A DNA stretch of 64,000 nt from Halorientalis salina (GTDB taxonomy: Archaea > Halobacteriota > Halobacteria > Halobacteriales > Haloarculaceae). Positions 21,014 through 46,645 of this stretch are shown piece by piece. The notes beneath the pieces are model-generated. The model was not told where the DNA came from. It ran no database searches and saw only the letters and a program-made list of their open reading frames with translations. The DNA is taken from NCBI RefSeq assembly GCF_005049285.1, contig NZ_SOSC01000003.1, positions 186,001 through 250,000 of the forward strand, in the 5' to 3' direction. A program made the translations under genes and the position numbers. The first letter of the stretch is position 1. Each line of letters opens with the position of its first letter.

Positions 21014-21279
21014 TTCTCACGGTTTCGAGCCGTCGTCGGGGTTCGTAACGTCGGCGACGACAGGCAGTGGGCGGACGGAAATCACCCGTTGTCGTATACG
21101 TCCGAACAGGTCCCGCGTGCTGGTTGCTATCCGCCTCGGACCACCTGAGGTCGGATCGAGTCGTTCGTCCCGAAGCAGGGGCACGGAAAGGGTCCTCCGA
21201 CAGGTGCGCTCGTCGAAATGTCGGGGCAGGCAACGGGATCGTGCAAGCCGTTATCACCCTCCGTGGCGTTCGGTCGAGT

Positions 21280-21729
21280 ATGCAAGGGCTCCGCTGGATT
21301 CGGATGAGTCCGGAGGAACGAAACGAGTTCCTCGGCGACGGGGGCACCGGTGTGCTGTCGTTCTCGACGCCGCCCGACGAACCCCCGTCGCTGCTTCCGG
21401 TGTCGTACGGGTACGACAAGCACTCGAGCAGTTTCTACTTCAGCCTCTCGTTCCCGCAAGAGACCGGGAAACCGGACGTAATCGACAACCCCGTGGCGTT
21501 CGCCACGCACTCGAAGACGGCTGCTGGGTGGCGCAGCGTCGTCGCGACCGGGACGTTAGAAGAGGTGACCGACATGCCGTACGATTCGAGCACTGTCCAG
21601 GGAATGTGGGGAATCCAGATTCCGGAAATCGACATCTTCGAGCGCCCTCGCGAGGAGATCGATTTCCGGAACTTTCATCTGGATTCCGACACGTTGACCA
21701 GCCGAAAGGAGGTCCAGACCGAGCCGTGA
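21280..21729 (+). CDS. pyridoxamine-5'-phosphate-oxidase-like FMN-binding protein
   Basis: A 149-residue split-barrel flavin-binding family protein. The N-terminal GLRWIRMSPEERNEFLGDGGTGVLSFS resembles the beginning of haloarchaeal pyridoxamine-oxidase-related proteins. Further conserved pieces are the PVSYGYD strand and VAFATHSKTAAGWRSVVATGTLEEV. The ATG chosen lies about 25 bases after a TATA-like gttatcacc, and an upstream in-frame ATG would add a low-quality 71-residue extension. The substrate is unknown; such proteins bind FMN, F420 or heme. It sits between nusA and rpsL and is transcribed separately. Confidence 0.8.
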   Translation: MQGLRWIRMSPEERNEFLGDGGTGVLSFSTPPDEPPSLLPVSYGYDKHSSSFYFSLSFPQETGKPDVIDNPVAFATHSKTAAGWRSVVATGTLEEVTDMPYDSSTVQGMWGIQIPEIDIFERPREEIDFRNFHLDSDTLTSRKEVQTEP

Positions 21730-22294: not shown

Positions 22295-22906
22295 ATGTCG
22301 AGCGACGCACCCGAGCCGGACACACCTGCCGGCACCGACGACGAGGACGCGGTCGCACAGCTGTTCGAGGCGTGGGACATCACCGAGATCGAGTACAACG
22401 ACCCGAGTACCGAGCGGTACATCACGGTCACGCCCATCGCACACACGATGGGTCGCCACGCGGGCAAGCAGTTCAAGAAAAGCGAGATCTCCATCGTCGA
22501 GCGACTGATCAACCGCCTGATGCAGACCGACGAGAACACCGGGAAGAAACAGCAGGCCACGCGCATCGTCCGCGAGGCCTTCGAGCTCATCCACGATCGG
22601 ACCGAGGAGAACCCGGTACAGGTCCTCGTACACGCGGTCGAGAACAGTGCTCCCCGCGAGGAGACTGTTCGCCTGAAATACGGTGGCATCTCCGTCCCGA
22701 AGGCCGTCGACGTCGCACCCCAGCGCCGGGTCGACCAGGCGCTGAAGTTCCTGGCCGAGGGCGTCTACAAGGACTCCTTCAAGACGCCGACCAGCGCCGA
22801 GGAGGCGCTCGCGAGCCAGCTCATCGGCGCGGCGAACAACGACGTCCAGACCTACGCGGTCAACCAGAAAGAAGAAAACGAGCGCGTCGCGGCCGCTGCA
22901 CGGTAA
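22295..22906 (+). CDS. rps7: 30S ribosomal protein S7
   Basis: A 203-residue uS7, which organises the 16S rRNA 3' major domain. The archaeal-type acidic N-terminal extension is followed by IEYNDPSTERYITVTPIAHTM and the core VERLINRLMQTDENTGKKQQA. It ends in the expected ENERVAAAAR. In most haloarchaea the elongation factor 2 gene follows closely. Here about 8.8 kb, mostly accessory genes, separates the two. Confidence 0.98.
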   Translation: MSSDAPEPDTPAGTDDEDAVAQLFEAWDITEIEYNDPSTERYITVTPIAHTMGRHAGKQFKKSEISIVERLINRLMQTDENTGKKQQATRIVREAFELIHDRTEENPVQVLVHAVENSAPREETVRLKYGGISVPKAVDVAPQRRVDQALKFLAEGVYKDSFKTPTSAEEALASQLIGAANNDVQTYAVNQKEENERVAAAAR

Positions 22907-23339
22907 CCCGACGCCACGGTTTTGCTTGCGGGTCGGATTCGATTTCTCACGATTGACGTTCGATAGCTCTGCAAATCGCTATCGTACGCTACTCAGTTCC
23001 CGTCATACGGTTTCCGTTATTTTTCGTGATGGACTTTGGCCCGTGCCAGACCGTACTGTAATAAATGCCCGTCCATATCCGGGGAAACAGTCAGGGTGAA
23101 CAGGGTGTTTGCATAGGGTGTCGTGGTGACGACAGACGATATGAGGGGAAACCTCCCGCTGTGGTTCGTCCACAGCCTCGCCGGGTGTGGCCTCGTGGGG
23201 AGAGGCCGCGGCCGGCGTGATTCCCGTGGTGTTGGGGGTCGGCACGCAGAAACGCGCCGACTGTTCCGGGGGGCGATCAGTGATGACGTGTTGTATACCA
23301 CGCGTGCAGATACGCAGCCAACTACGAGAGTGAGAACAC
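22907..23339. other. 433-base non-coding stretch at the upstream edge of the accessory island
   Basis: No convincing gene is visible. The stretch holds the end of the rps7 transcript (a tttt run soon after the stop) and the promoter-like element described separately. From that element to the first DUF6230 ATG the leader would be about 250 nt, which is unusually long for a haloarchaeon. Confidence 0.5.
23058..23085 (+). promoter_or_regulatory. shared promoter-like element, copy A (before first DUF6230 gene)
   Basis: It consists of gtaataaat followed by gcccgtccatatccgggga. The same arrangement of an AT-rich TATA-like core plus a ccgtNNatatccgggg block recurs before the second and third DUF6230-type genes. 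This copy is the farthest from its gene (about 255 bases). The downstream block may be an initiator or an operator. Confidence 0.5.
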
Positions 23340-24011
23340 ATGTACGATAAATCGATCCTCGCCAAGAGTACTGGCGCATCGCTCGGTGTGGTCGCCGTCG
23401 TCGGCATGCTCTTTTTGAGCACCGGCACGGCGTTCGCCGCACCGATTTCGGGTATCGGCGGATTCAAGATTCAGGCCGAAGAGATCCAGGGTGACGACTT
23501 CATCCTGTATCCCGGCTCTGGTGACGCGGAGAACATCTCCCAGTACCCGCAGGGTATCGTCGAGCTGAACAGCGTCACGATCACGGACCTCACGCTGATC
23601 AAGCGCTTCAACCTCGATCAGTACGGGATGACGGGCAACGCGCGCCTCGTCATTACCGCCGGTACGAGCACTGACGTCACGTCCGGGCAGCTGCTCCTGA
23701 AGACGCCCGAACTGGAAGCTGACTCCGCCGCGTTCAACGGCCTGACGATCGACGAGGCCAACGCGAACGAGAGCAAGGCGGGCATCAAGCAAGTGATCAC
23801 GCTGCGCGCACCCGAGGCCCCGACGCAGGGCGACGTCGCAGGTGGCCCGCGCCAGGTTACCCTCGACGGCGGTGACGGGAACCCCGGCCTCGTTCTCCAG
23901 GGCGCGAACATCCGTGCGACCTACCTCGCGACCAACGAGATCACGCTGCCGGACCTCGGTCTGGAAGTTCAGTTCGACCCGAACAACGACGGCACGTACG
24001 AGTACGCGTAA
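23340..24011 (+). CDS. exported DUF6230-family protein
   Basis: A 223-residue protein. The N-terminus MYDKSILAKSTGASLG leads into one hydrophobic segment ending in a signal-peptidase-like AFA site (about residues 10-33), so the protein is exported or N-terminally anchored. The mature part is predicted beta-rich and matches what I recall of the actinobacterial DUF6230 family. Matching pieces are LLLKTPELEADSAAFNGLTI, GNPGLVLQGANIRATYLA and a final amphipathic strand. It ends with the acidic FDPNNDGTYEYA, a Ca2+-loop-like signature shared with its paralogues. The next gene encodes a DUF6114-type membrane protein, the same pairing seen in Streptomyces. Function unknown; some database labels such as cholesterol esterase have no support here. 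Confidence 0.75.
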   Translation: MYDKSILAKSTGASLGVVAVVGMLFLSTGTAFAAPISGIGGFKIQAEEIQGDDFILYPGSGDAENISQYPQGIVELNSVTITDLTLIKRFNLDQYGMTGNARLVITAGTSTDVTSGQLLLKTPELEADSAAFNGLTIDEANANESKAGIKQVITLRAPEAPTQGDVAGGPRQVTLDGGDGNPGLVLQGANIRATYLATNEITLPDLGLEVQFDPNNDGTYEYA

Positions 24012-24030
24012 CGTCGTTCCACTAACCGCG

Positions 24031-24040
24031 AATTTTTTTA
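24031..24040 (+). promoter_or_regulatory. A/T-rich element between DUF6230 and DUF6114 genes
   Basis: The string aattttttta lies about 30 bases before the DUF6114 ATG. It could be a T-run terminator for the upstream gene, a TATA-like box for the downstream gene, or both. Confidence 0.35.
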
Positions 24041-24068
24041 GTACAACAACCGCATACAGACAAACACA

Positions 24069-24560
24069 ATGTCCGTAAAATCAGCACTGTGGCACGCGCT
24101 TCCGACACCGGTTCAGCGACGACTCGACGACCGCATCGCCAAGTTCAACGACTGGCGTGAGCCGCGCCCCTTCTGGGGAGGGGTGTTGCTCATGCTCGGG
24201 GGGTTGATCATCGGCTGGGTCCCGATCCAGTTCGCGACGGAGCTCGCCGTCATCGGCGGTGCGTTCACCGTCATCGGGCTCGTATTCGCCGTGCTGGTGT
24301 TCCTGACCGGGGCGTTCGTCCTCGCTCGGCCGGAGATGTCTACCATCTTCGGCGTCCTCGGGATCGCGCTGTCGATCCTGTCGCTCGTCGGGGCACTGGG
24401 CGGCCTGTTCGTCGGAATGTTGCTCGGGATCGCTGGCGGGAACCTCTGTATCGCCTGGCAGGATCCCAACCCCGGGACGACGACCAGCACCAGTACGAGT
24501 ACCAGTAGCTCCGCGAGTGCGAACGAGGACGTGCAGTTCAGTTGGCAGGGCGAACAGTAA
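24069..24560 (+). CDS. DUF6114-family four-helix membrane protein
   Basis: A 163-residue protein. A basic N-terminal stretch carries the family signature EPRPFWGG (about residues 32-40). Four hydrophobic helices follow (about 40-58, 62-85, 92-110, 112-130), with the Gly-rich GGLFVGMLLGIAGGNLCIAW at the end. A Thr/Ser-rich tail ends in VQFSWQGEQ. An F-x-W-(Q/E) tail recurs in paralogues in this window. The protein is probably the membrane partner of the adjacent exported DUF6230 protein. No catalytic residues are visible, and the role is unknown. Confidence 0.75.
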   Translation: MSVKSALWHALPTPVQRRLDDRIAKFNDWREPRPFWGGVLLMLGGLIIGWVPIQFATELAVIGGAFTVIGLVFAVLVFLTGAFVLARPEMSTIFGVLGIALSILSLVGALGGLFVGMLLGIAGGNLCIAWQDPNPGTTTSTSTSTSSSASANEDVQFSWQGEQ

Positions 24561-24691
24561 GCCGGCAGGCGTCACGTCGGCGTAGTGGCGCTCCGTTTTC
24601 GCCCGCACCATCGCCGCCACGTGCTGATTTTCGGCGGTTTTCCGTTTCGATCCTGGTTCGACGTGTCACGGCCAGCGACCAAGCTGGAAAG

Positions 24692-24718
24692 AATATAAGT
24701 GGCCGTTCATGACCGGCG
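24692..24718 (+). promoter_or_regulatory. shared promoter-like element, copy B
   Basis: The sequence aatataagt followed by ggccgttcatgaccggcg aligns with the elements at 23058 and 26779. Here the gene starts about 100 bases downstream. The TATA-like core is the clearest of the three, and the second block is the most divergent. Confidence 0.45.
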
Positions 24719-24819
24719 TAATCTTGAGTGGGAATTAGGTAATTATCTACGGTAGACAGTCACGCCTTTGGACGGGCATGGGAAGAGCGCCCGGGGTGGG
24801 GTGTGGCCAAACACGAACT

Positions 24820-26559
24820 ATGTATAATCGTAAACGCGTTGCACGAGGAGCAGGCACTGCTATCGCGGTCTGGGCACTTCTGGGGTTGTTTATCGTCTCG
24901 ACGGGGGTCGCCTACGCATTACCGCTGGCCGGGGTCGGGGGGTTTACCATCACGGCTGACGAGGTGCAAGCCGACAATCTGCTCCTGTATCCCGGTGTCG
25001 GGGACACGAGCGAGCGGGACGCCTACCCCCAGACCATCGCAGAGCTGGAGGGGACGACGATCACGGACCTGACGGCGTCGAAGACGATCGGTCTGGATTC
25101 GACGCCGGGACTGTCCGGGAAGTTCCGCGTCAGTATCGTCTCACAGGGGGAAAGCGACGGGTCCGCACTGCTGTTGAAATCGAGTGCACTGCAGTCCAGC
25201 AGTGCCGAGTTCACTAATTTCTCGATCGAAGAGATGGCCTCGGACGACCCGCGGGGCCGGTTCGAGCTCGAATCGAACGGACCGGTAACGCTCGGCGGGA
25301 CCGGTCAGTACCCCGTTCGGATTCGCGCACACTACGTGGCGCTCAACTCCGTGTCCACGCCGAACCTCGGCCTCAGGGTCTGTTACGACCCGGACAACGA
25401 CGACGAGTACGAGTACGGGTCCTGCGACGGCTCGCTGCCGGACTGGGGGAGCAATCCCGACATGGGCGAGAACCAGGCGCCCAAGGCCGTTGCGTTCGCG
25501 GAGCCGATTCCGGCGGAAATGGGCGAAACGATTACCTTCGACGCCTCGTCGTCGTACGATCCCGACGGCTCTGTCGAGTCCTACGAGTGGAGCTTCTCCG
25601 ACGGAACGACGACGAACGGGAAGACTGCGACGCGCTCGTACAGTTCCACCGGTGACTACGAGGTGACGCTAACGGTGACCGACGACGACGGCAAATCCGG
25701 CTCGGACACCGTCACCGTCACTGTGGGGAACCAGGCACCGACGGCCGACGCGTCGGCTGACAAGACGACGGTCATCCCCGACGAGACGGTCACGTTCGAC
25801 GGGTCAGGGTCCAGCGATCCCGACGGCAGTATCGAGTCCTACGAGTGGGACTTCGGTGATGGGACGACCGCGGTGGGCGAGAGTCGAACCCACTCGTACG
25901 ATTCGACGGGGACGTACACGGCGACGCTGAACGTGAGCGACGACCTCGGGATTTCGGACACGGACACCATCGATATCGACGTCGTCCAGAACGAACCGCC
26001 GACGGCCAGCGCGTCCGTCGACGACGCGGAACCGAACCCCGGCGAGACGGTCACGTTCGACGCCTCCGAGTCGTCGGACGACACCGGCCGGATCACGTCC
26101 TACGAGTGGGAGTTCGGCGACGGAACCACCGCGACCGGCGATACACCGACACACGCCTACAGTTCACCGGGAACCTACGAGGCCACGGTGACGGTGACTG
26201 ACTCGGGCGGCCTGACCGAGACGGAGACGGTGACGGTCGACGTGAACGAGGTACCGACGGCGAGCTTCACGAGGAACCCGACATCGGGTAACGAGGACAC
26301 CACGTTCACGTTCAACGCGTCCGGATCGTCCGACCCCGACGGCTCCATCGTCTCCTACGAGTGGAGTCTCGAGGAAGACGACTGGTTCGACAACAGCGCG
26401 ACTGCCAGCGGTGAGGTCATCGAGAAGCAGTTCGAAGTCGTCGACATCGAAAGCACCAAGACGTTCGACGTCACGCTGACGGTCACCGACGACAACGGCG
26501 CGACTGATTCGGTGACGAAATCGGTCGACGTCGACAACTGTTACCTCGACATCTGCTGA
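24820..26559 (+). CDS. DUF6230-type exported protein with four PKD-like repeats
   Basis: A 579-residue surface protein. MYNRKRVARGAGTAI is followed by a hydrophobic segment ending in AYA (about residues 10-34) and then a DUF6230-like domain to about residue 205. That domain closes with YDPDNDDEYEYG flanked by Cys residues. Four tandem beta-sandwich PKD domains follow, each with an SYEW(S/D/E)F(S/G)DG-type core; the fourth is divergent. No C-terminal membrane helix or PGF-CTERM signal is present, so anchoring would be N-terminal or through partners. The internal ATG at 24820 is preferred because all paralogues begin MY(N/D). No DUF6114 gene follows directly; the nearest is 2.4 kb downstream. 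Confidence 0.75.
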   Translation: MYNRKRVARGAGTAIAVWALLGLFIVSTGVAYALPLAGVGGFTITADEVQADNLLLYPGVGDTSERDAYPQTIAELEGTTITDLTASKTIGLDSTPGLSGKFRVSIVSQGESDGSALLLKSSALQSSSAEFTNFSIEEMASDDPRGRFELESNGPVTLGGTGQYPVRIRAHYVALNSVSTPNLGLRVCYDPDNDDEYEYGSCDGSLPDWGSNPDMGENQAPKAVAFAEPIPAEMGETITFDASSSYDPDGSVESYEWSFSDGTTTNGKTATRSYSSTGDYEVTLTVTDDDGKSGSDTVTVTVGNQAPTADASADKTTVIPDETVTFDGSGSSDPDGSIESYEWDFGDGTTAVGESRTHSYDSTGTYTATLNVSDDLGISDTDTIDIDVVQNEPPTASASVDDAEPNPGETVTFDASESSDDTGRITSYEWEFGDGTTATGDTPTHAYSSPGTYEATVTVTDSGGLTETETVTVDVNEVPTASFTRNPTSGNEDTTFTFNASGSSDPDGSIVSYEWSLEEDDWFDNSATASGEVIEKQFEVVDIESTKTFDVTLTVTDDNGATDSVTKSVDVDNCYLDIC

Positions 26560-26884
26560 CGGCTTCGAGACAGGGCCACCTGCTCGCCAGTTTTCGCCTG
26601 TTGTCCTGTATTGACGCACTGAGCCACTGGCCCACCGGGTACGCTGCCCGTGTTTCGAAGTGTCTATCTCAGACCAGGTCGACGGTGGTGGCCGCTGCCG
26701 GATGTCCCACCGGGTGAGGTCGAGTCACCGGTCATCCGAGGACGTATAGAGTTGTTCTCAAATCTTCACGGCTGAAATAATATAATAGACCGTCAGTATC
26801 CGGGGATATATTAAACCAGTATTGTGGGAAATCAGGTCACGGAAACGAGTTGCGGGCCTGGGAATCCCGCAGGGAGCGACAAAC
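26560..26884. other. non-coding spacer with promoter element
   Basis: About 325 bases without a gene. It contains promoter-like copy C and two further AT-rich stretches (ataatataatag and gatatattaaacc), unusual for this GC-rich region. No hairpin terminator stands out after the preceding gene. Confidence 0.45.
26779..26806 (+). promoter_or_regulatory. shared promoter-like element, copy C
   Basis: The sequence aatataatag followed by accgtcagtatccgggga is the closest relative of copy A; the string tatccgggga is identical. The gene starts about 80 bases downstream. A second TATA-like gatatattaaa follows immediately. Confidence 0.5.
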
Positions 26885-28837
26885 ATGTACAATCGGACAC
26901 GCGTAGCGAGGGGTACAGGGGCCGCCGTTGCGGTGTGGGCACTCGTCGGGTGGATCGTCATCTCGACGGGGGTCGCATACGCACTGCCACTGGCTGGCAT
27001 CGGCGGGTTCACGATCACCGCCGAGGAGGTCACGGCGGACAGTCTCCTTCTCTATCCGGGAGTAGGTGATACCAGCGAGCGGGACGCCTATCCACAGACG
27101 ATCTCGGAGTTACAGAACACGGATCTGGTGGATCTGGCCGTAACGAAGACGATAGACCTGAATTCGACGCCCGGGTTGTCCGGGAATCTCCGTATGGATC
27201 TCGTGTCGCAGGGGCAGACGACTGGAACGTCCGTCGTCTTGAAATCGAGCGTATTACGCTCCGAAGGGGCCGCCTTCGAGCAGTTCGAGATCAGAGAGCT
27301 GAACTCCTCGGACACGTTCGGGCAGTTCGAGATCGAGTCGGGCGGCCCGGTGACGCTGGGCGGGTCCGGGAGCGAACCGGTGAAGATTCGGGCGCACTAC
27401 CTGGCGACGAACTCGATTTCGGTCTCGAACCTCAAACTCGGGGTCTGTTACGATCCGGACGACGACAGCGACTACGAGTACGGATCGTGTATGAGCACGC
27501 CGCCGAACTGGGGGAGCAATCCCGACATGAGCGACAACGAGGCACCGACGCCGGTCGCGGACGCGGCACCGAACCCGATCGTGGTGAACGAGACCGTGAG
27601 CTTCGACGGGTCGTCGTCGTACGACCCCGACGGCTCGGTCGAGTCCTACGAGTGGACGTTCGACGGCGGGACGACCACGACCAGCGTGACGACCGAACGC
27701 ACGTACACCGAGCCCGCGAACTACACGGTCGACCTGACCGTGACCGACGACGACGGGGCGACCGCGACGGAGACGGTCACCGTCGTCGTCGAGAGCAAGG
27801 ACCCGACCGCGAGGCCGGACGCCAACCGGACGTCGGTGATCACCGAGGATTCGATCGCGTTCGACGGGACGAACTCCTCGGACCCGGACGGGGAAATCGT
27901 CTCCTACGAGTGGGAGTTCGGCGACGGACGGAACGCTACCGGCGCAACGGCCACGCACGCGTACGATTCACCGGGCGAGTACACGGTGAACCTGACCGTC
28001 CACGACGACGACGGCATCAGGGACAGGGGCACACTCACCGTCACTGTCGACTCGAACACGGCCCCGACCGCGAACGCGACGGCCAACAGGACGTCGGTGA
28101 TCGCCGGCGATCCGATCGCGTTCGACGGGACAGGGTCGTCGGACTCGGACGGCACCATCGAGTCCTACGAGTGGGACTTCGACGATAACACGACCGCAAC
28201 GGGGCCGACGCCGACACACGCCTACGATTCGACTGGCAACTACACTGCCACGCTGACGGTGACCGACGACAAGGGCGCAACCGCAACCGACACCGTCGAG
28301 ATTACGGTCGACACCAATTCGGCACCGACTGCGTCCGCGACTGCGAACCGGACCTCGGTGCTGACCGGTGACTCAGTCGCGTTCGACGGGACGGGGTCGT
28401 CGGACTCGGACGGCACCATCGAGTCCTACGAGTGGGACTTCGGCGACAACACGACCGCAACAGGGGCAACGCCGACACACGCCTACGATTCGACTGGCAA
28501 CTACACCGCGACGCTGACGGTAACCGACGACAAGGGCGCAACCGCGACCGACACCGTCGACATCACCGTCGAGTCGAACACGGCCCCGACCGCGAACGCG
28601 ACGGCGAACCGGACCACAGCCGCGGTCAACGAGACTATCGCGTTCGACGGGTCCGGGTCATCTGACTCGGACGGTACCATCGCGTCCTACGAGTGGACGT
28701 TCGACGACGGAACCACCGCGACGGGGGTCGACCCCACCCACGCGTTCGACGCGACCGGCAACTACACGGTGACGCTGACGGTGACCGACGACGACGGCGC
28801 GACCGCGACCGACGCCGTCGAGATCACCATCGAGTAG
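26885..28837 (+). CDS. DUF6230-type exported protein with five PKD-like repeats
   Basis: A 650-residue paralogue of the preceding gene. The N-terminus MYNRTRVARGTGAAV, the hydrophobic export segment ending in AYA, and the DUF6230-like domain (to about residue 210, closing with YDPDDDSDYEYG) are all conserved. Five PKD domains follow. The last three are tandem units of 87 residues, each with several N-glycosylation sequons (NRT, NTT, NYT), and they are nearly identical at DNA level. No C-terminal anchor is visible. Two DUF6114-type membrane genes follow 77 bases downstream. A role as a glycosylated surface stalk is inferred. Confidence 0.75.
   Translation: MYNRTRVARGTGAAVAVWALVGWIVISTGVAYALPLAGIGGFTITAEEVTADSLLLYPGVGDTSERDAYPQTISELQNTDLVDLAVTKTIDLNSTPGLSGNLRMDLVSQGQTTGTSVVLKSSVLRSEGAAFEQFEIRELNSSDTFGQFEIESGGPVTLGGSGSEPVKIRAHYLATNSISVSNLKLGVCYDPDDDSDYEYGSCMSTPPNWGSNPDMSDNEAPTPVADAAPNPIVVNETVSFDGSSSYDPDGSVESYEWTFDGGTTTTSVTTERTYTEPANYTVDLTVTDDDGATATETVTVVVESKDPTARPDANRTSVITEDSIAFDGTNSSDPDGEIVSYEWEFGDGRNATGATATHAYDSPGEYTVNLTVHDDDGIRDRGTLTVTVDSNTAPTANATANRTSVIAGDPIAFDGTGSSDSDGTIESYEWDFDDNTTATGPTPTHAYDSTGNYTATLTVTDDKGATATDTVEITVDTNSAPTASATANRTSVLTGDSVAFDGTGSSDSDGTIESYEWDFGDNTTATGATPTHAYDSTGNYTATLTVTDDKGATATDTVDITVESNTAPTANATANRTTAAVNETIAFDGSGSSDSDGTIASYEWTFDDGTTATGVDPTHAFDATGNYTVTLTVTDDDGATATDAVEITIE
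28055..28834 (+). repeat. three tandem 261-base units encoding PKD domains
   Basis: The string gactcggac recurs at 28142, 28403 and 28664, giving an exact 261-base (87-codon) period. The first two units match closely over the whole length and the third is more diverged. This indicates recent in-frame duplication. Confidence 0.8.
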
Positions 28838-28913
28838 TTGGCGACCGCGTCGGGAGCTCCCTCGTCGTGCTTGTCGAAAGACAAAAGCGGATTGAGGTTC
28901 CACGTTCGGAGGA

Positions 28914-29519
28914 ATGGGACCGTTGTCAGGAGGGGGTTCGACGCTGGGGGAGTGGGCAACCGACCCGCGGGGGGAGTTTCGGCGGTGGCGGCAACCCCGG
29001 CCGATGCTCGGCAGTTCGCTGCTGGTTCTCGGTGGCCTGTTGATCGGGTACGTTCCGGTCCAGTTCACTTCGGAGCTGATGCTCATCGGCGGGGCCTTCA
29101 CCATCCTCGGAATGATGTTCGCCGTGCTGGTGATGTTCTGTGGCCTGTCGGCGCTGGCGAAACCCGAACTGTCGTCGATCTTCGGCGTGCTCGGGATCGC
29201 GCTCTCGACGCTGTCGCTGTTCGGCGCGCTCGGCGGGTTGTTCGTCGGCATGATGGTGGGCACGATGGGCGGAATCCTCTGTTACGCCTGGGAACCACCG
29301 GAGGGCCACGAGTACGAAGAAACCACCCTGGCCGAGGCCTCGGGGTTCATCTGGCAGGAGACCGGCGGGTTCATCTGGCAGAGTTCCCAGGGGTTCATCT
29401 GGCAGACCGACGACGAGACCGACACCGACGCGGCGACCACTGACACCGACGCCGATGCCGATTCGACGGGGTCGGCGGACGACGACGAGTTGTCCCTCGA
29501 AGACAAGTACAAGCTATGA
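28914..29519 (+). CDS. DUF6114-family membrane protein with triplicated GFIWQ tail
   Basis: A 201-residue protein. The N-terminal 30 residues are soluble and end in RQPRPMLGSS, the degenerate form of the family's RPFWGG signature. Four hydrophobic helices fill about residues 32-130 (including GALGGLFVGMMVGTMGGILCYAW). The C-terminal tail carries GFIWQ three times at an eight-residue spacing (about residues 145-165) and then an acidic Asp/Thr-rich stretch. A GGAGG ribosome-binding-like sequence lies just before the ATG. The stop overlaps the next start (ATGA). It is the likely membrane partner of the PKD protein encoded upstream. Confidence 0.75.
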   Translation: MGPLSGGGSTLGEWATDPRGEFRRWRQPRPMLGSSLLVLGGLLIGYVPVQFTSELMLIGGAFTILGMMFAVLVMFCGLSALAKPELSSIFGVLGIALSTLSLFGALGGLFVGMMVGTMGGILCYAWEPPEGHEYEETTLAEASGFIWQETGGFIWQSSQGFIWQTDDETDTDAATTDTDADADSTGSADDDELSLEDKYKL

Positions 29520-29947
29520 GCGGCGGTCGCGACGGGGTCGAGGCGGTCCGCCTGTGGTGGCAGGGATTCAGCCGGTGGCGCCGTCGCAGGCCGTTCTGGG
29601 GCGGGACGTTGCTCGTCCTCTCGGCGCTTTTCACGGGCTACCTGCCGGCCGCGTACGACCGGTTCCTCTTCTTTCCGACCGGGTCGTTCACGACGACCGC
29701 CGTCCTGTTTGCCGTGTTGCTCTTGCTCTGTGGAGTCACGGTGCTTACCTTCCCCGCGGCGTCCGGTCTCGTCGGCTTCCTTGGAATGCTGCTCTCGACG
29801 CTGGCGCTATTGGGCGCGCTCGGTGGGTTCCTCGTCGGGACGGTGCTCGGTGGCCTCGGCGGCGTCCTCAGTTTCGCCTGGACACCACCTGACGAGACTC
29901 GGCGGTTCAGTTGGGAGGACGACGCGGCCGATTCGGGCCCGGAGTGA
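29516..29947 (+). CDS. second DUF6114-family membrane protein
   Basis: A 143-residue paralogue translationally coupled to the preceding gene. It has the intact RRPFWGG signature near residue 25, four hydrophobic helices, and a GALGGFLVGTVLGGLGGVLSFAW C-terminal helix. The tail ends RRFSWEDDAADSGPE, again with an F-x-W-(Q/E) motif. Two adjacent DUF6114 genes suggest a heteromeric membrane unit. The convergent DUF5781 gene ends only two bases away. Confidence 0.75.
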   Translation: MSGGRDGVEAVRLWWQGFSRWRRRRPFWGGTLLVLSALFTGYLPAAYDRFLFFPTGSFTTTAVLFAVLLLLCGVTVLTFPAASGLVGFLGMLLSTLALLGALGGFLVGTVLGGLGGVLSFAWTPPDETRRFSWEDDAADSGPE

Positions 29948-29949
29948 GG

Positions 29950-30699
29950 TCAGTCCGCGGCCTGGCCGGTGTCGATGGCGTACTCGCGAGTCACGTCGAC
30001 GAGCGTCTTGCGGTACTCGCTCTCGCCGGGGTCGCGCGCGAGCGAGCGGAAGTAGTGTTTGAAGGTGTCGAGGCTGATCGCCGGGGCGTCCGCCGCGGCC
30101 GCGTGCGCCAGGTCGTAGAGCCGGTGCTCCCGCCCGATGAGGTCGTGGCGCTCGACCAGCGCCAGCGCGAAGGCGGCGTTGACCGCGGTGATCTCGGGAT
30201 CGGCCGCGGACGTCCAGCGGGTCCCGCCAGTGCGGTCGACGGGCTGGTCGGCGAGCGCGGCCGCCAACCCCGATTCGAGGAAGGAAATAAGTTTGTCCGC
30301 GGGCGCGACCGAGAGCGTGATGTCGTCCGCGTAGATGTCTTTCATGTGGTTTGCGATCTGGTAACAGTGGGCCAGTTTGCGCCGCTCGACGCTCCGGCCC
30401 GAGAGCGCGAGGTAGAGGACTTCCTCGGTCGACTGGGTGTGTGAGGGGTGGCCCTGTTCGTTGCGGTGCATGTGCGCGTACTCGTGGAGGGCGAGTTCGC
30501 GGGCCATCGCGCTCGTGGCGGCCTGCCGCGAGATGAAGAGGTTGTGGTGGTCGTCCTCGTGGTTGGTCCAGGTGCGCTCGTCGGGATCCTCGCGGACGTG
30601 AACCTCGACGGGGCGATCCAGGTCGTATTCGGTCTCGAACAGGTCCCGGGCACTACGAAACGGCTCGGTCGGGCCGACTGACTGCACGCGTACGTCCAT
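29950..30699 (-). CDS. DUF5781 protein with zincin-like HExxH motif
   Basis: A 249-residue haloarchaeal protein. HEYAHMHRN at residues 72-80 is an HExxH zinc-protease signature, and an acidic STEEVLYLALSG helix about 18 residues downstream could supply the third ligand. It lacks a signal peptide or membrane helix, so it is cytoplasmic. It matches the family I recall as DUF5781, commonly located near the EF-2 gene in haloarchaea. Proteolytic activity is unproven. The start is supported by a TATA-like AAAGTAATT about 30 bases upstream on the minus strand. Confidence 0.8.
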   Translation of the reverse strand: MDVRVQSVGPTEPFRSARDLFETEYDLDRPVEVHVREDPDERTWTNHEDDHHNLFISRQAATSAMARELALHEYAHMHRNEQGHPSHTQSTEEVLYLALSGRSVERRKLAHCYQIANHMKDIYADDITLSVAPADKLISFLESGLAAALADQPVDRTGGTRWTSAADPEITAVNAAFALALVERHDLIGREHRLYDLAHAAAADAPAISLDTFKHYFRSLARDPGESEYRKTLVDVTREYAIDTGQAAD

Positions 30700-30744
30700 G
30701 TATACCTATGCCAGGGGCTGGAAGGGAATTACTTTGACGCCCCA

Positions 30745-30867
30745 CCACCTTTTTCCTCGTCGGGTTCGCCTTCGGCGAACCGCTCCTCGCAAAAACGTGG
30801 GCGAAAAAGGCTGAACGCTCGGCTTCGCCTCGCGTTCAGTGAACCGCGCTCGCTTCGCTCGCGCGGA
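30745..30867. repeat. dispersed hairpin-rich intergenic repeat, copy 1
   Basis: It begins with ccacctttttcctcgtcgggtt, which is followed by hairpin 1 (ttcgcc/ggcgaa). Then comes the string aaaaacgtgggcgaaaaa and hairpin 2 (ctgaacgc/gcgttcag), and it ends in gaaccgcgctcgc. The same order of blocks recurs at 33883 and 38725. Confidence 0.7.
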
Positions 30868-30938
30868 TGCTGTGTGAATTTTTGATGGTCAGTACAGACA
30901 AGATACTTACCACAGTCTTCAGCATGTTCCTGTGACAG

Positions 30939-31517
30939 ATGAAACAGGTGGCGACGTGGATTGCTTGGTTCCGTACAACGTGGCCGGCACAGGCCCTTGG
31001 GAATGCCGTGATAGCAATTTCGGTGGCGGTTGCCGTCTTTCAGTTCGTCACGCTTGTAGGCTCCTCTATTCTTGGGCGGATTTCGGTTTGGGCAGTCGGT
31101 GTGGTGTTCTGGCCGTACTTTTTGATTCTCTCGAATACTACAGGTGACGGTGGTATCTTGCGAGCGGGGATAGGGGTGTTTTTGATGTTTGGTGGAGCCA
31201 TTGGAGTACTGCTATCCGGGCTTCCAGCGCTGTTTCTTGGACGGTGGGGACAGATCGGAATCGCTCTGCCACTACTAGCCTTGGCAACGGTTGGCTCGGT
31301 GTATTTGTTGTCAGTACTTCCTAACAGGCCGTCACTCACGCTTGCCATCGGCCTGAGTTGTGGTATTGTCAGCGCCGGTTTTCTCAATACACTCCTCTCA
31401 CCAGCCTGGCCATTGCTACTCGCTGTTATCGGAGTCTGGTATGCAATAGCTGTGACACCCGTTGGAAGTGGGTCGGTATTCTACGTACCGAAGAACAGTC
31501 AAGACCACTCAGGATGA
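30939..31517 (+). CDS. membrane protein of unknown function, AT-richer than neighbours
   Basis: A 192-residue protein with about six hydrophobic helices and few charged residues. I do not recognise it. Codon choice is visibly different from the surrounding genes, with many codons ending in A or T (for example runs like ttgattctctcgaatactac), which suggests recent acquisition. It is flanked upstream by a dispersed intergenic repeat. A TATA-like atacttacc lies about 27 bases before the ATG, so the gene is probably expressed. It interrupts the DUF5781-EF-2 interval. Confidence 0.6.
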   Translation: MKQVATWIAWFRTTWPAQALGNAVIAISVAVAVFQFVTLVGSSILGRISVWAVGVVFWPYFLILSNTTGDGGILRAGIGVFLMFGGAIGVLLSGLPALFLGRWGQIGIALPLLALATVGSVYLLSVLPNRPSLTLAIGLSCGIVSAGFLNTLLSPAWPLLLAVIGVWYAIAVTPVGSGSVFYVPKNSQDHSG

Positions 31518-31619
31518 GATACGACTGAAGCATTTGTGACTGGACTGGTAGATAAACACACCCAAATCGACATTAAAAACGAACAGAATGTTGGCTTACA
31601 AAGTTCGCGAATGAAGTGA

Positions 31620-31646
31620 GCGCACCTGAGCGGAAAAAAGGTGCGC
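31620..31646. other. stem-loop upstream of EF-2
   Basis: Perfect 8-base arms gcgcacct/aggtgcgc enclose an 11-base loop ending in a run of A. It lies just before the TATA-like acttttgacc of the EF-2 gene and could be a terminator or a regulatory element. Confidence 0.35.
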
Positions 31647-31693
31647 GCCAAACCACTTCACTTTTGACCCTGCTTCCGATATGACGCAGTATA

Positions 31694-33880
31694 ATGGGCC
31701 GACGTAAAAAGATCGTACAGGAGTGTGAGCGGCTGATGGACGAGCCGGAGAACATCCGGAACATCGCCATCGCCGCCCACGTCGACCACGGGAAGACGAC
31801 GCTGACAGACAACCTGCTCGCCGGGGCAGGCATGATTTCCGACGAGACTGCCGGTGAGCAGCTCGCGATGGACACCGAGGAGGACGAGCAGGAACGTGGG
31901 ATCACCATCGACGCGGCGAACGTTTCGATGACCCACGAGTACGAGGACACCAACCACCTCATCAACCTCATCGACACGCCGGGCCACGTCGACTTCGGGG
32001 GCGACGTGACCCGCGCGATGCGCGCCGTCGACGGCGCGCTCGTGGTCGTCGACGCCGTCGAGGGTGCCATGCCCCAGACCGAAACGGTCCTGCGGCAGGC
32101 GCTCCGCGAGGGTGTCAAGCCCGCACTGTTCATCAACAAGGTCGACCGTCTCATCTCCGAGCTCGAGGAAGGGCCCCAGGAGATGCAGGAGCGACTCACC
32201 GCGGTCATCCGCGACGTGAACGACCTCATCCGCGGGATGACCGAGGAGATGGACGACATCGACGACTGGACCGTCTCCGTCGAGGACGGCACGGTCGGCT
32301 TCGGGTCCGCGCTCTACAAGTGGGGCGTCTCCATGCCCTCGATGCAGCGGACCGGCATGGACTTCGGGGACATCATCGACCTCGAACAGGCCGACAAGCG
32401 CCAGGAACTCCACAACCGGACGCCCCTGGCCGACGTCGTGCTGGACATGGTCTGTGAGCACTTCCCGAACCCCATCGACGCCCAGCCGATGCGCATCCCG
32501 CGCGTCTGGCGTGGCGACGCCGACTCGGAACTCGCCGACACGATGCGTCTCGTCGACGAGGACGGCGAAGTCGTCCTGATGGTCACCGACATCGGTGTCG
32601 ACCCCCACGCCGGCGAGATTGCTGCCGGTCGTGTGTTCTCGGGTACCATCGAGAAAGGCCAGGAACTCTACGTCTCGGGCACTGCGGGCAAGAACCGCAT
32701 CCAGAGCGTCGGGATCTACATGGGTGGCGAGCGCGAGGAAGTCGACCGCGTTCCCGCCGGGAACATCGCTGCCGTCACGGGCCTCAAGGACGCCATCGCG
32801 GGTTCCACGGTTTCGTCCGTGGAGATGACGCCCTTCGAGTCCATCGAGCACATCTCCGAGCCGGTCATCACGAAATCCGTCGAGGCACAGAACATGGACG
32901 ACCTGCCCAAGCTCATCGAGACGCTCCAGCAGGTCTCCAAGGAGGACCCGACGATCCAGATCGAGATCAACGAGGACACCGGCGAACACCTCATCTCCGG
33001 GCAGGGTGAGCTTCACCTCGAAGTCATCACCCAGCGCATCGAGCGCAACCAGGGCATCCCGGTCAACACCGGTGAGCCGATCGTCGTCTTCCGCGAGGCG
33101 CCTCAGCAGGAGTCCCGCGAAGTCGAAGGCATCTCGCCGAACCGCCACAACCGCTTCTACATCTCCATCGAGCCGCTCGATCAGGAAGTCATCGACACCA
33201 TCAAGATGGGCGAGGCGTCGATGGACATGCCGGAACTCGAACGCCGTGAAGCCCTGATGGAGGCCGGTCTCGACAAGGACGCCGCCCAGGAAGTCGAGAC
33301 GATGCACGGGACCAACATCCTCATCGACGACACGAAGGGGATCCAGCACCTCAACGAGACGATGGAACTCGTCGTCGAAGGCCTCGAGGAAGCGCTGGAC
33401 GACGGCCCGCTCGCCGCCGAACCAGTCGAAGGTTCGCTCATCCGTCTCCACGACGCGCGCCTCCACGAGGACGCCATCCACCGCGGTCCGGCACAGGTCA
33501 TCCCCGCCGTTCGGGAGGCCGTCCACAACGCCTTGGTCGACGCGAAGATCAAGCTCCTGGAGCCGATCCAGGAAGTCCGCATCGACGTGCCCAACGACCA
33601 CATGGGTGCCGCCTCCGGCGAGATCCAGGGTCGCCGTGGCCGCGTCGACGACATGTACCAGGAAGGCGACCTGATGGTCGTCGAGGGCGTCGCGCCCGTC
33701 GACGAGATGATCGGGTTCTCCTCGGACATCCGCTCCGCGACCGAGGGTCGTGCCTCCTGGAACACCGAGAACGCAGGCTTCCAGGTCATGGCCGACAACC
33801 TTCAGCCGGAGACGATCACCGAGATCCGCGAGCGCAAGGGCATGAAGACCGAACTGCCCGAAGCGATCAACTACTTCTAA
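31694..33880 (+). CDS. fusA: translation elongation factor EF-2
   Basis: A 728-residue translocase GTPase. G1 AHVDHGKTT (about residue 26), G3 DTPGHVDF and G4 NKVD are intact. The domain IV tip contains DAIHRGPAQ, where the His is the expected diphthamide site. Length and domains are normal. The TATA-like acttttgacc sits about 30 bases upstream of the ATG. The gene normally follows rps7 in the str operon but here lies after an accessory island and has its own promoter. Confidence 0.98.
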
Positions 33881-44254: not shown

Positions 44255-44923
44255 ATGTACGACAACAAACGATTAGCCAGCGGCGTTGGCGTGTTACTCA
44301 CGCTGTGGGCGCTCGTTGGGCTACTGGTGATGAGTTCCGGGGTGGGGCTCGCTGTCTCGGCACCGTTGTCTCCGTCCGGAGGATTCGTCGTCGAGGCGAA
44401 TTACCTGGGTGCGGAGGAATCGGTATCGACGGCGTCGACGACTGAGACGACGGGTGTGCCCGCGGCGAAGTTCGAGGTCACGAAGAGTTACGCCGAGTAC
44501 CTGAAGCTGATGAAGACGCTGGACGTGAGCACCGTACCCGGCCTCAACGGGCAGATCAGGTTACTGATACAGAGCGATACGGCCACGCTACAGGGCGTGA
44601 CGTTCAGGACGAACGACCTCACGGCGAGTACGGCGCGCTGGCGCGGGTTCGTCCTCGACGAGCGAAACGAGGAGTCGCGGTTCGACCAGTTCTACTCCTA
44701 CGCGGGCCCGAACCCCGAGGAGGCGCCCAACACGGACGACGAGATGGAGGTGGGCGGAAGTACGCCGGGTGCGGTGAAAAAGAGCGAGGAGCCCGGCTTC
44801 CAGTTGTACAACACGCGAATCGAGATGTCGAGTCTGACTGCCGATCAGGTCACGCTGTCGAACCTCGACCTGCGCGTGCAGTACGACCCCGACGGCGACG
44901 GAACCTACGAGTATGGCACGTAA
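44255..44923 (+). CDS. exported DUF6230-family protein, second locus
   Basis: A 222-residue paralogue. It starts MYDNKRLASGVGVLL, followed by one hydrophobic segment (about residues 10-33) and a beta-rich ectodomain. Conserved pieces are PSGGFVVEANYLGAEE, VPGLNGQIRLLIQSDT and the closing QYDPDGDGTYEYGT. It is shorter than the PKD forms and has no added domain. Its stop overlaps the next start by eleven bases, so it is translationally coupled to a fusion protein carrying both a membrane module and an ectodomain. Confidence 0.72.
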   Translation: MYDNKRLASGVGVLLTLWALVGLLVMSSGVGLAVSAPLSPSGGFVVEANYLGAEESVSTASTTETTGVPAAKFEVTKSYAEYLKLMKTLDVSTVPGLNGQIRLLIQSDTATLQGVTFRTNDLTASTARWRGFVLDERNEESRFDQFYSYAGPNPEEAPNTDDEMEVGGSTPGAVKKSEEPGFQLYNTRIEMSSLTADQVTLSNLDLRVQYDPDGDGTYEYGT

Positions 44924-46184
44924 CGACGACACGACTCCGACCGGGCACGACGGAACGGACACGGACGAGCGCGCTGGGCGGCCAGTCCGCAGCCGATTCA
45001 GCGAGTGGATCGCGACGCGACCGGCAGCGGGGGCGGCCCTGCTCGCGCTCGGCAGTTCGGTGCTCGCCTGGCAGGCGGTGAGCCTGCTGGCGAGCGTTCC
45101 CGGGGGTACCGTCACGCTGGCAGGGGTTGCTGGCGTGGCAGCGCCCGTATTCGCTGTCGTCGTCGCGCTGTTCGCGCTCGGCCGTCCGGACTACTCGACC
45201 GTCGCCGGACTGGTCGGGGGGAGTATCGTCCTCCTGGACGTCGTCGGGATGATGTACGCACCGACGCCGATCGAGTATCCGCAACTGGTCGTGTCCGCGT
45301 TGCTCGTCGCGGGCATCGGTGGCGTGCTCTGTGTCGGCTGGCGAGCCGGTGGCCCGACCGTCGAGTTCGGTCGGATCGATGATGTGTTCAGCCACGGTCG
45401 GTCGCTGCTGGTCGTCGGGCTGGTGGTCCTGCTGGCGTTAAACGGTGCCCCGGCCGTGACGGCCCAGGAGAAGGTGCCCCAACAGCAGGGCGCACTCGGC
45501 GGGCTGGTCCTCGATCAGGGGACGCTCGCCGCGGGCTTTTACAGCTATCAGGCCAGCTGCCCGAAACCCAAGGACCCGCTGATCACGCTGGGCGAGGACG
45601 AGCCGTGTCTGGACGCCACCGTCGATTCGAGCGAGCGGGCGTCGGGCTCCATCGACCGGGTCGCACGCCAGCAACTCGACAGCGCGCTGGGAAAGAAGGT
45701 GCTCATCGACGACTTCCTCATCTTCAAGAACTTCTACAATCCCGATCAGGACAAGTTCGAGCACGTCGAACTCTCGGCGACGCAGGCCATCGCCGAGACC
45801 GACGACGGCGAGGACCCCCGAGCGGTGTCGGTGTACATCTCCGAGTACCGCGCCGAGAACAACGAAGCCCGGCTGAACCTCGTCGACATCCCGCTCATCG
45901 AGGACCCCGGGATCAAAGTCGACAACGTCAATTACTGGACCTGCACCCCGCAGAACGAGTCCGGGCAAGGCAGCATCAACGACATCCGGTTCGGGATCGA
46001 CTCGGACCCGACGCTGACCGGGGGTAAGGACGCGACGCTACTCGCGCACCAACTGGGCAGCACCCAGACGACGCTGACGAACTTCAAACTGAAGGTCAGG
46101 CCGGGCAAGCGCGACCGGCCCGTCGCCGACGCCGATCCCACTGACCCGCCGTCGAACTGTCTGGAGGGGACGATTACGGATTGA
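44913..46184 (+). CDS. fusion of DUF6114-like membrane module and DUF6230-like ectodomain
   Basis: A 423-residue protein. The N-terminal part has the ATRPAAGAALLALG form of the DUF6114 signature and four hydrophobic helices (about residues 38-145). A fifth hydrophobic helix (LLVVGLVVLLALNGAPAVTA, about 165-185) leads into an exported domain of about 235 residues. That domain contains KVLIDDFLIFKNFYNP, STQTTLTNFKLKVRPGK and three or four Cys residues, and it resembles the DUF6230 family more remotely. The helix before the ectodomain looks like the signal/anchor of the stand-alone DUF6230 proteins. The assignment of both halves is inference from local patterns. Confidence 0.6.
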   Translation: MARNDDTTPTGHDGTDTDERAGRPVRSRFSEWIATRPAAGAALLALGSSVLAWQAVSLLASVPGGTVTLAGVAGVAAPVFAVVVALFALGRPDYSTVAGLVGGSIVLLDVVGMMYAPTPIEYPQLVVSALLVAGIGGVLCVGWRAGGPTVEFGRIDDVFSHGRSLLVVGLVVLLALNGAPAVTAQEKVPQQQGALGGLVLDQGTLAAGFYSYQASCPKPKDPLITLGEDEPCLDATVDSSERASGSIDRVARQQLDSALGKKVLIDDFLIFKNFYNPDQDKFEHVELSATQAIAETDDGEDPRAVSVYISEYRAENNEARLNLVDIPLIEDPGIKVDNVNYWTCTPQNESGQGSINDIRFGIDSDPTLTGGKDATLLAHQLGSTQTTLTNFKLKVRPGKRDRPVADADPTDPPSNCLEGTITD

Positions 46185-46645
46185 TGAAGGTGCCTTCGCT
46201 TGCGGCCACCGAGCGTGGAGATGGAACCGTGACTGATGCCGACACCCCCGGAACGACAGGGAGTTCGACGGAGGAGACGATCACCTTCGCGGAGTGGCGA
46301 GCGGCGCGGCCGTTCTACGGCGGACTGGCGCTCATCGTCGGCGGGCTCGTCATCGCCTGGCCCTCGGTACAGTTCCTGCTGCAGGCGAGCATGCTCCAGC
46401 ACCAGTCAGTCGTCAGCCTGGGGGTAATCGTCGGCGCGCTGATCGTCTTCCTGGGCGTCGCCGCGTTGCTGCGACCCGAACACTCGACGGTGATCGGTCT
46501 GGCCGGACTGATCCTGGCGACGGCCTCGTTCGTCGTCGCGTTCGGCGGCCTGCTCGTCGGGATGTTCGTCGCCAGCGCCGGCGGAATCCTCTGTTTCGCC
46601 TGGCGACCGTCCGGGGAGTCGCTGCCGCTGGCAGGTACTGAGTAA
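46184..46645 (+). CDS. DUF6114-family membrane protein, second locus
   Basis: A 153-residue protein. The family signature appears as AARPFYGG (about residue 42), followed by four hydrophobic helices ending with the Gly-rich GGLLVGMFVASAGGILCFAW. The short tail ends ESLPLAGTE and lacks the F-x-W-(Q/E) motif of the first locus. The ATG overlaps the upstream TGA by one base; a TTG three bases earlier is possible. It is the likely partner of the two preceding proteins. Confidence 0.72.
   Translation: MKVPSLAATERGDGTVTDADTPGTTGSSTEETITFAEWRAARPFYGGLALIVGGLVIAWPSVQFLLQASMLQHQSVVSLGVIVGALIVFLGVAALLRPEHSTVIGLAGLILATASFVVAFGGLLVGMFVASAGGILCFAWRPSGESLPLAGTE

Follow-up and report, generated by a model that had tools for sequence, protein, structure and literature searches.

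What fills the 8,787 bp (22907-31693) between the gene for ribosomal protein S7 (22295..22906, + strand) and that for EF-2 (31694..33880, + strand) in Halorientalis salina, and was it recently acquired? We addressed this question in a 64-kb window, the whole stretch of DNA analysed, of the 3.66-Mb draft genome (positions 186001-250000 of contig NZ_SOSC01000003.1). A preliminary description of the window, which correctly placed about 8.8 kb between the two genes, had assumed that EF-2 normally comes soon after S7 and had read the intervening DNA as an accessory island. We found that the interval consists mostly of ordinary, inherited genes in a variable interval, and that only a piece of ~0.8 kb is specific to the window. 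On balance we think it probable that these genes form an inherited surface-display module, placed between separately controlled units and equipped with a shared promoter element and a structured leader.

Gene content of the interval in Halorientalis and its relatives

The gene that we designate A (23340..24011, + strand) encodes a protein with an N-terminal membrane helix or signal followed by a beta domain, and passes the curated Pfam cut-off for DUF6230 (PF19741; 38.5 bits against 27.5). Genes B (24069..24560), E (28914..29519) and F (29516..29947), all on the + strand, pass that for DUF6114 (PF19609; 95.2, 79.6 and 80.6 bits, cut-off 27.9), B being a predicted four-helix membrane protein. 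Between B and E lie genes C (24820..26559, + strand) and D (26885..28837, + strand), in which a DUF6230-like N domain is joined to four and five PKD domains, respectively; Pfam made no DUF6230 call for either, and their N domains are 40% (C) and 39% (D) identical to gene A. The DUF5781 gene (29950..30699, − strand; PF19093, 441 bits), a dispersed intergenic repeat (30740..30870, no strand) and the orphan, AT-richer gene H (30939..31517, + strand), whose hydrophobic sequence suggests a membrane protein, complete the interval. Pfam, G+C content (GC) and a repeat search thus bore out the inventory given in the preliminary description.

We compared this arrangement across 60 stretches from 59 genomes of the family. 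The Halorientalis set comprised the eight genomes of the search collection, H. salina included, with H. pallida (L082) as a ninth. DUF6230/DUF6114 genes and DUF5781 occupied this slot in 7/7 congeners. Genes A, B, D, E and F were found in six of the seven, G076 having A and B only, and C-like matches were found in two. A further large gene, c7, a putative extra surface gene, lies upstream of A in five of the seven and is absent from the H. salina window; the single c7 scanned contains CARDB domains. Flanks and internal promoters were collinear across Halorientalis. The arrangement and conservation of the gene set are well supported, and because the conservation is genus-wide the set is not a recent island; its presence in all seven congeners, the very comparison with relatives on which the preliminary description had made its island depend, rules out such an origin for it.

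The assumed tight spacing of S7 and EF-2 fared no better. Among 146 genomes of the family S7 was found in 141, the window's copy matching its own place in the genome at 100%, and S7 and EF-2 rows could be paired in 123. In 83 of these 123 genomes (H. salina included) the two genes were linked within 20 kb on one strand, with a gap of 953-12,166 bp (median 4,102) and no pair (0/83) closer than 500 bp; this gap count excludes genomes with a fragmentary or unlisted EF-2 row and the second S7 row of G109. The remaining pairs were far apart or inverted on one contig (21) or on different contigs (19, some of them in fragmented assemblies). In other families of the class the genes were linked in 55 of 70 genomes with a median gap of 2,455 bp; two gaps measured 154 bp, 22 were at most 1.5 kb and 22 exceeded 3 kb. 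A gap of <500 bp therefore occurred in only 2 of 138 linked pairs (83 from the family and 55 from other families). DUF5781 lay between S7 and EF-2 in all 58 family loci holding both and in 19 of 20 loci of other families, chosen across the gap range. Most often S7 is followed by DUF5781 on the minus strand and then by EF-2, frequently along with additional genes, and the tight-pair baseline is wrong because this ordinary neighbourhood already holds DUF5781 and often more. DUF5781 is accordingly part of the conserved neighbourhood and not, as had been proposed, island DNA. The DUF5781 protein itself carries HExxH and then HPSHxQS, and HExxH was present in 57/57 cluster members; we take this motif to mark metal-dependent peptidases, and its conservation therefore suggests that a metal-dependent peptidase is encoded beside EF-2.

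The DUF6230/DUF6114 pair and its possible function

The part of the interval kept across the genus is made of DUF6230 and DUF6114 genes, on which a search of open-access literature found almost nothing (a single paper for DUF6230, none for DUF6114). We surveyed 67 archaeal and Bacillota loci encoding DUF6114 relatives, and found a DUF6230 gene directly upstream of DUF6114 on the same strand in 64 of them (the exceptions being L098, L123 and L147), a pairing that is new here. A further DUF6230-like gene followed the pair in 27 of 46 bacterial loci, and the annotation of a Rhodococcus plasmid includes the pair as well. In a sample of 391 genomes of the class, 44 had DUF6114 above its cut-off and 21 had DUF6230, the latter a count that is too low because the DUF6230 model misses members even within Halorientalis. 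The genes of H. salina resemble the two Pfam families elsewhere in that A, and B, E and F, pass the cut-offs, and in the adjacency also seen in Bacillota and on the Rhodococcus plasmid; Halorientalis differs in having several copies of the pair, PKD arrays on the DUF6230-like proteins and repeated FIW motifs in the DUF6114 tails. B tails end in an FSWQG-type motif (FSWQGEQ in the window), and in E tails FIW or FVW recurs three to four times (as three FIWQ repeats in the window's gene E). The FxW tail motif was present in 26/38 Halorientalis rows, 2/29 other haloarchaeal rows and 2/49 bacterial rows, counts that are not independent, as some genomes appear twice.

Fusions of DUF6114 to ectodomains were found as well (window 44913-46184, L064 and L070), and one DUF6230-like protein contains PA14 domains (L064:5188-6852). 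The AlphaFold2 model of gene A (predicted local distance difference test score, pLDDT, 82.6) shows a single helix at the N terminus (4-29) and a beta domain, and that of gene B (pLDDT 81.6) has four long hydrophobic helices after N-terminal ones; it is from these models that we predict their membrane topology. Because a beta domain, predicted to be exported, can bear PKD or PA14 domains and stands nearly always beside, and is sometimes fused to, a four-helix protein, we hypothesize that the pair functions in surface display. DUF6230 proteins would be exported beta domains carrying exchangeable extracellular arrays (PKD in H. salina, PA14 in a relative), and DUF6114 proteins would be their four-helix partners in the membrane, holding or assembling them and bearing the FxW motif in a predicted cytoplasmic tail.

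Some structural comparisons tell against this proposal. Neither DUF6230 nor DUF6114 has a solved relative by sequence; the best Foldseek E for the DUF6230 fold was 0.11, with nothing usable, and its one VIA match reached Z 3.2 with a root-mean-square deviation (rmsd) of 5.2 Å over 78 residues. DUF6114 matched four-transmembrane partners of the TARP, p22phox and MARVEL type at Z 8-10 (rmsd ~2.7-3.3 Å over 95-104 residues), but soluble copper-storage bundles stood among these matches at Z 10-11.

A rival explanation for the function of the pair, though a rather unlikely one in our judgement, is an envelope lipid-handling or other stress module to which the PKD arrays are secondary. Consistent with this, in Bacillota and other haloarchaea the paired proteins are short and carry no large added domains (few of them Pfam-scanned), and DUF6114 is also found in frames with a multi-transmembrane part or an AMP-binding enzyme. 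In addition, a LuxR-type regulator faces away from the pair in 3/3 Bacillales loci scanned (L101:5315-6811, L118:5494-7017 and L096:5876-7066), with a GAF domain over cut-off in one, L118. However, the Foldseek and VIA results included no fold match to a lipid carrier, which is no proof, and the repeated gain of adhesive-type domains points outward.

Further observations concern the same families. The LuxR-type regulator is a candidate controller of the Bacillales DUF6230/DUF6114 operons. In L062:5119-7161 and L066:3069-4691, DUF6114 stands at the end of a repeated multi-helix membrane protein, of which Pfam names only the DUF6114 part above cut-off. Within the window, a second set (44255..46645, + strand) lies ~10 kb downstream of EF-2 and encodes a DUF6230-like protein of 222 amino acids (aa), a 423-aa DUF6114-like protein with an ectodomain and a 154-aa DUF6114 protein; the 423-aa protein has no Pfam match and is DUF6114-like by custom profile only. 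A DUF6114 copy is also found 13-17 kb from EF-2 in three congeners (G075, G080 and G081).

A putative promoter element and a structured leader before gene A

If the gene set is an inherited unit, is it also controlled as one? Upstream of gene A (23060..23084, + strand) we identified a TATA-like box followed by CCGTCCATATCCGGGG, and a corresponding element precedes gene D (26781..26805, + strand). In 9/9 genomes CCGTCNRTRTCCGGGG, with at most one mismatch, lay upstream of gene A just after the TATA-like box, and it was also present before 7/8 D genes. Across eight genomes, matches with at most one mismatch numbered 71, compared with 9 for the reversed pattern; of the 17 exact matches, 14 were in this locus, before A, D or c7, and the 3 off-locus ones were without a TATA-like box (30 of the 71 places were examined). 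Within the window, the element together with a TATA-like box gave 2 matches at up to 3 mismatches where 0.01 were expected, and none of 100 shuffles gave as many. By themselves, neither the short motif TATCCGGGGA (3 found, 3.95 expected) nor the bare 16-base element at 3 mismatches (27 found, 21 expected) exceeded chance in the window. This promoter element before several genes of the locus is new here, its role as a promoter being predicted from sequence. Genes A and D and, in relatives, c7 share the element, which stands after the TATA-like box and before the expected start, a place that could serve an archaeal repressor as its binding site.

Between the element and gene A lies a conserved, structured leader (23085..23339, + strand; model core 23118-23309), counted from the presumed transcription start. 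The element-to-start distance of gene A was 225-255 nucleotides (nt) in nine genomes. Single-sequence folding in four of the nine gave z scores of -2.79, -3.95, -4.65 and -2.67, and the nine-sequence consensus comprised 49 pairs, 12 of which showed compensatory changes on both sides (7 in helix 5, 3 in helix 8 and one each in helices 2 and 3). The consensus had 96.3% paired cells, compared with a shuffled mean of 91.6, and a covariation score of 0.313 compared with 0.216; 0/500 shuffles reached any of five measures. Sliding the partners by 1-3 columns reduced pairing to 35-55%. The region before gene D, taken as a negative control in six genomes, was rejected as a structured leader (2/16 pairs compensated, covariation term unfavourable at +1.57). 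We conclude that the ~250-nt leader before a DUF6230 gene, new here with its covariation support, is well supported as a structure and is a candidate as a regulator.

In all nine genomes the leader lies directly upstream of A behind the TATA-like box, even in those in which c7 stands between it and S7, a position that fits a part of the gene A mRNA. The preliminary description had suggested growth-linked expression from the neighbouring housekeeping genes; such expression by readthrough from S7 finds no support here, although expression itself was not measured, as A and D carry their own TATA-like box and the shared element, and the leader of A is kept in congeners where another gene separates A from S7. 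By contrast with what is proposed here, a source on Haloferax volcanii gives 72% of protein-coding transcripts as leaderless and 5'-untranslated regions over 150 nt as infrequent (97 cases), and calls structured-leader control not typical in haloarchaea, most mRNAs studied being leaderless (PMC4983044). Like known cis-regulatory leader RNAs of the riboswitch kind, the leader of A is a long presumed 5' leader with a closed, multi-branch, covariation-supported fold before one gene; unlike them it matches no Rfam family, searches of window 22900-31700 and of L003, L004 and L082 having been negative up to E 0.5. It would probably gate translation or RNA stability.

Four c7 leaders (L002:2077-2301, L003:1893-2114, L004:11112-11328 and L005:2170-2391) have a similar layout, with 6/54 pairs compensated: a closing stem, a long hairpin, a hairpin with a 6-nt loop, a third hairpin and a G-rich return strand are common to the A and c7 leaders. 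As the c7 leader went undetected by the gene A model, we rejected its assignment to the same RNA family, and the likeness is therefore one of layout only. A more daring reading, which we put forward only tentatively, is that the leader, possibly a riboswitch, belongs to a hitherto undescribed class of archaeal cis-regulatory RNA and controls a Halorientalis surface-display operon, the c7 leader of the same layout and the shared, dedicated promoter element making this a one-locus regulon.

Several points weigh against assigning this control to the module. The element is missing from some members, with 5 mismatches before the 222-aa gene of the second set, 3 before C and 5 before the D gene of H. 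marina. The consensus structure was both built from and counted on one group of nine related sequences, which favours it over the slid controls; relatedness is not preserved in the shuffles, and related sequences can beat shuffles without structure, least so for the pair and type counts, while invariant pairs are uninformative on their own. The covariance model built from the nine finds them by construction (one copy in each of the eight Halorientalis genomes, as built in), and it gives no meaningful match to the c7 leader even without filters. The leader is confined to one genus: in the class sample the model matched at E <= 0.01 in 6/391 genomes, all Halorientalis, and within the family weak matches outside the genus in G073 (E 0.005), G033 and G071 were taken as chance, the family and class scans having used stricter filters that lose weak matches. 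Open frames are also present within the leader.

Alternatively, the conserved stretch might be a DNA-level element or a stand-alone small RNA instead of acting in cis as a leader. The leader's start is a prediction, and the region before gene A could be overlapped by an independent RNA. We consider this unlikely: the constant position directly upstream of A, even with c7 intervening, speaks against a stand-alone RNA, and because of the compensatory changes an RNA is more likely than a DNA-level element.

Variable cargo and a 0.8-kb insertion before EF-2

Outside Halorientalis the DUF6230/DUF6114 pair occupied the same slot in only one of 52 loci of other genera (G122, L011), which fits lateral movement or loss elsewhere. 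Common cargo in other genera was a trio of BioY-like (31 loci), ABC-ATPase (23) and BioN-like (28) genes, and a PQQ-type sugar-dehydrogenase-like gene was present in 20 loci; these names come from our reading of the sequences, not from a library search. Directly upstream of EF-2, a conserved block with CTTTTGA or CTTTTCA was present in 60/60 rows. The suggestion of a tolerated insertion point is thus supported at the scale of the family, cargo differing between genera while this block stays constant. We read the block (31649..31693, + strand) as the putative promoter and leader of EF-2. The interval would then lie between two separately controlled transcription units and, since EF-2 would have its own compact promoter directly upstream, would tolerate genes, each lineage filling it differently and Halorientalis with its inherited surface-display module. 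Like other variable loci between housekeeping genes, it combines fixed flanks with exchangeable content and genus-specific genes; it differs in having no mobility gene in H. salina and in the retention of its DUF6230/DUF6114 content within the genus.

In 7/7 congener loci with EF-2, nucleotide similarity breaks off at ~30700 and is regained at 31649, 45 bp upstream of EF-2; the distance across the break is ~90-200 bp in congeners compared with 948 bp in H. salina. The point of resumption coincides with the conserved block, which the insertion spares. The true recent insertion is therefore ~0.8 kb, consisting of the dispersed repeat and gene H, and is the only window-specific piece of the interval. 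The repeat is real: its own genome yields 46 matches at E <= 1, a number that includes the copy itself and many weak matches, and a copy lies right after EF-2 in L002, L005 and L007. Gene H is sporadic, being found in 1/146 family genomes, its own, and has no Pfam match. We rejected a viral or plasmid origin for it, as no relative was found in viral contigs or plasmids (best PHROG E 0.09).

A recent accessory island spanning S7 to EF-2 in this strain, to which the 8.8-kb gap, the absence of DUF6230/DUF6114 from the slot in 51/52 non-Halorientalis family loci examined and the presence of the repeat and gene H might point, is highly improbable given the genes' presence throughout the congeners, the collinear flanks and internal promoters, a GC in 500-base windows (0.57-0.71) like that of the flanks (0.59-0.71) except for a drop to 0.50-0.56 only at ~30750-31999, around H, and the lack of any tRNA gene between 12449 and 38419 and of any integrase- or transposase-type Pfam match among the interval's eight genes.

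Nearby, a pyridoxamine-oxidase-like gene (Pyridox_ox_2) is located at 21067-21729, between NusA and S12. It had a tblastn match in 0/60 fetched loci of other genomes, some of which stop short of NusA, and may be another single-gene insertion near ribosomal genes.

Taken as a whole, the comparison shows that S7 and EF-2 do not, as had been assumed, stand close together in haloarchaea as a rule. Bacillota, Actinomycetota and Haloarchaea share the DUF6230/DUF6114 pair, whose fusions and gained domains suggest a function that experiments can test. The structured leader and the promoter element, both specific to the genus, merit experiments too, and with its dedicated promoter element the leader of gene A is a concrete case for testing RNA-level control in haloarchaea.

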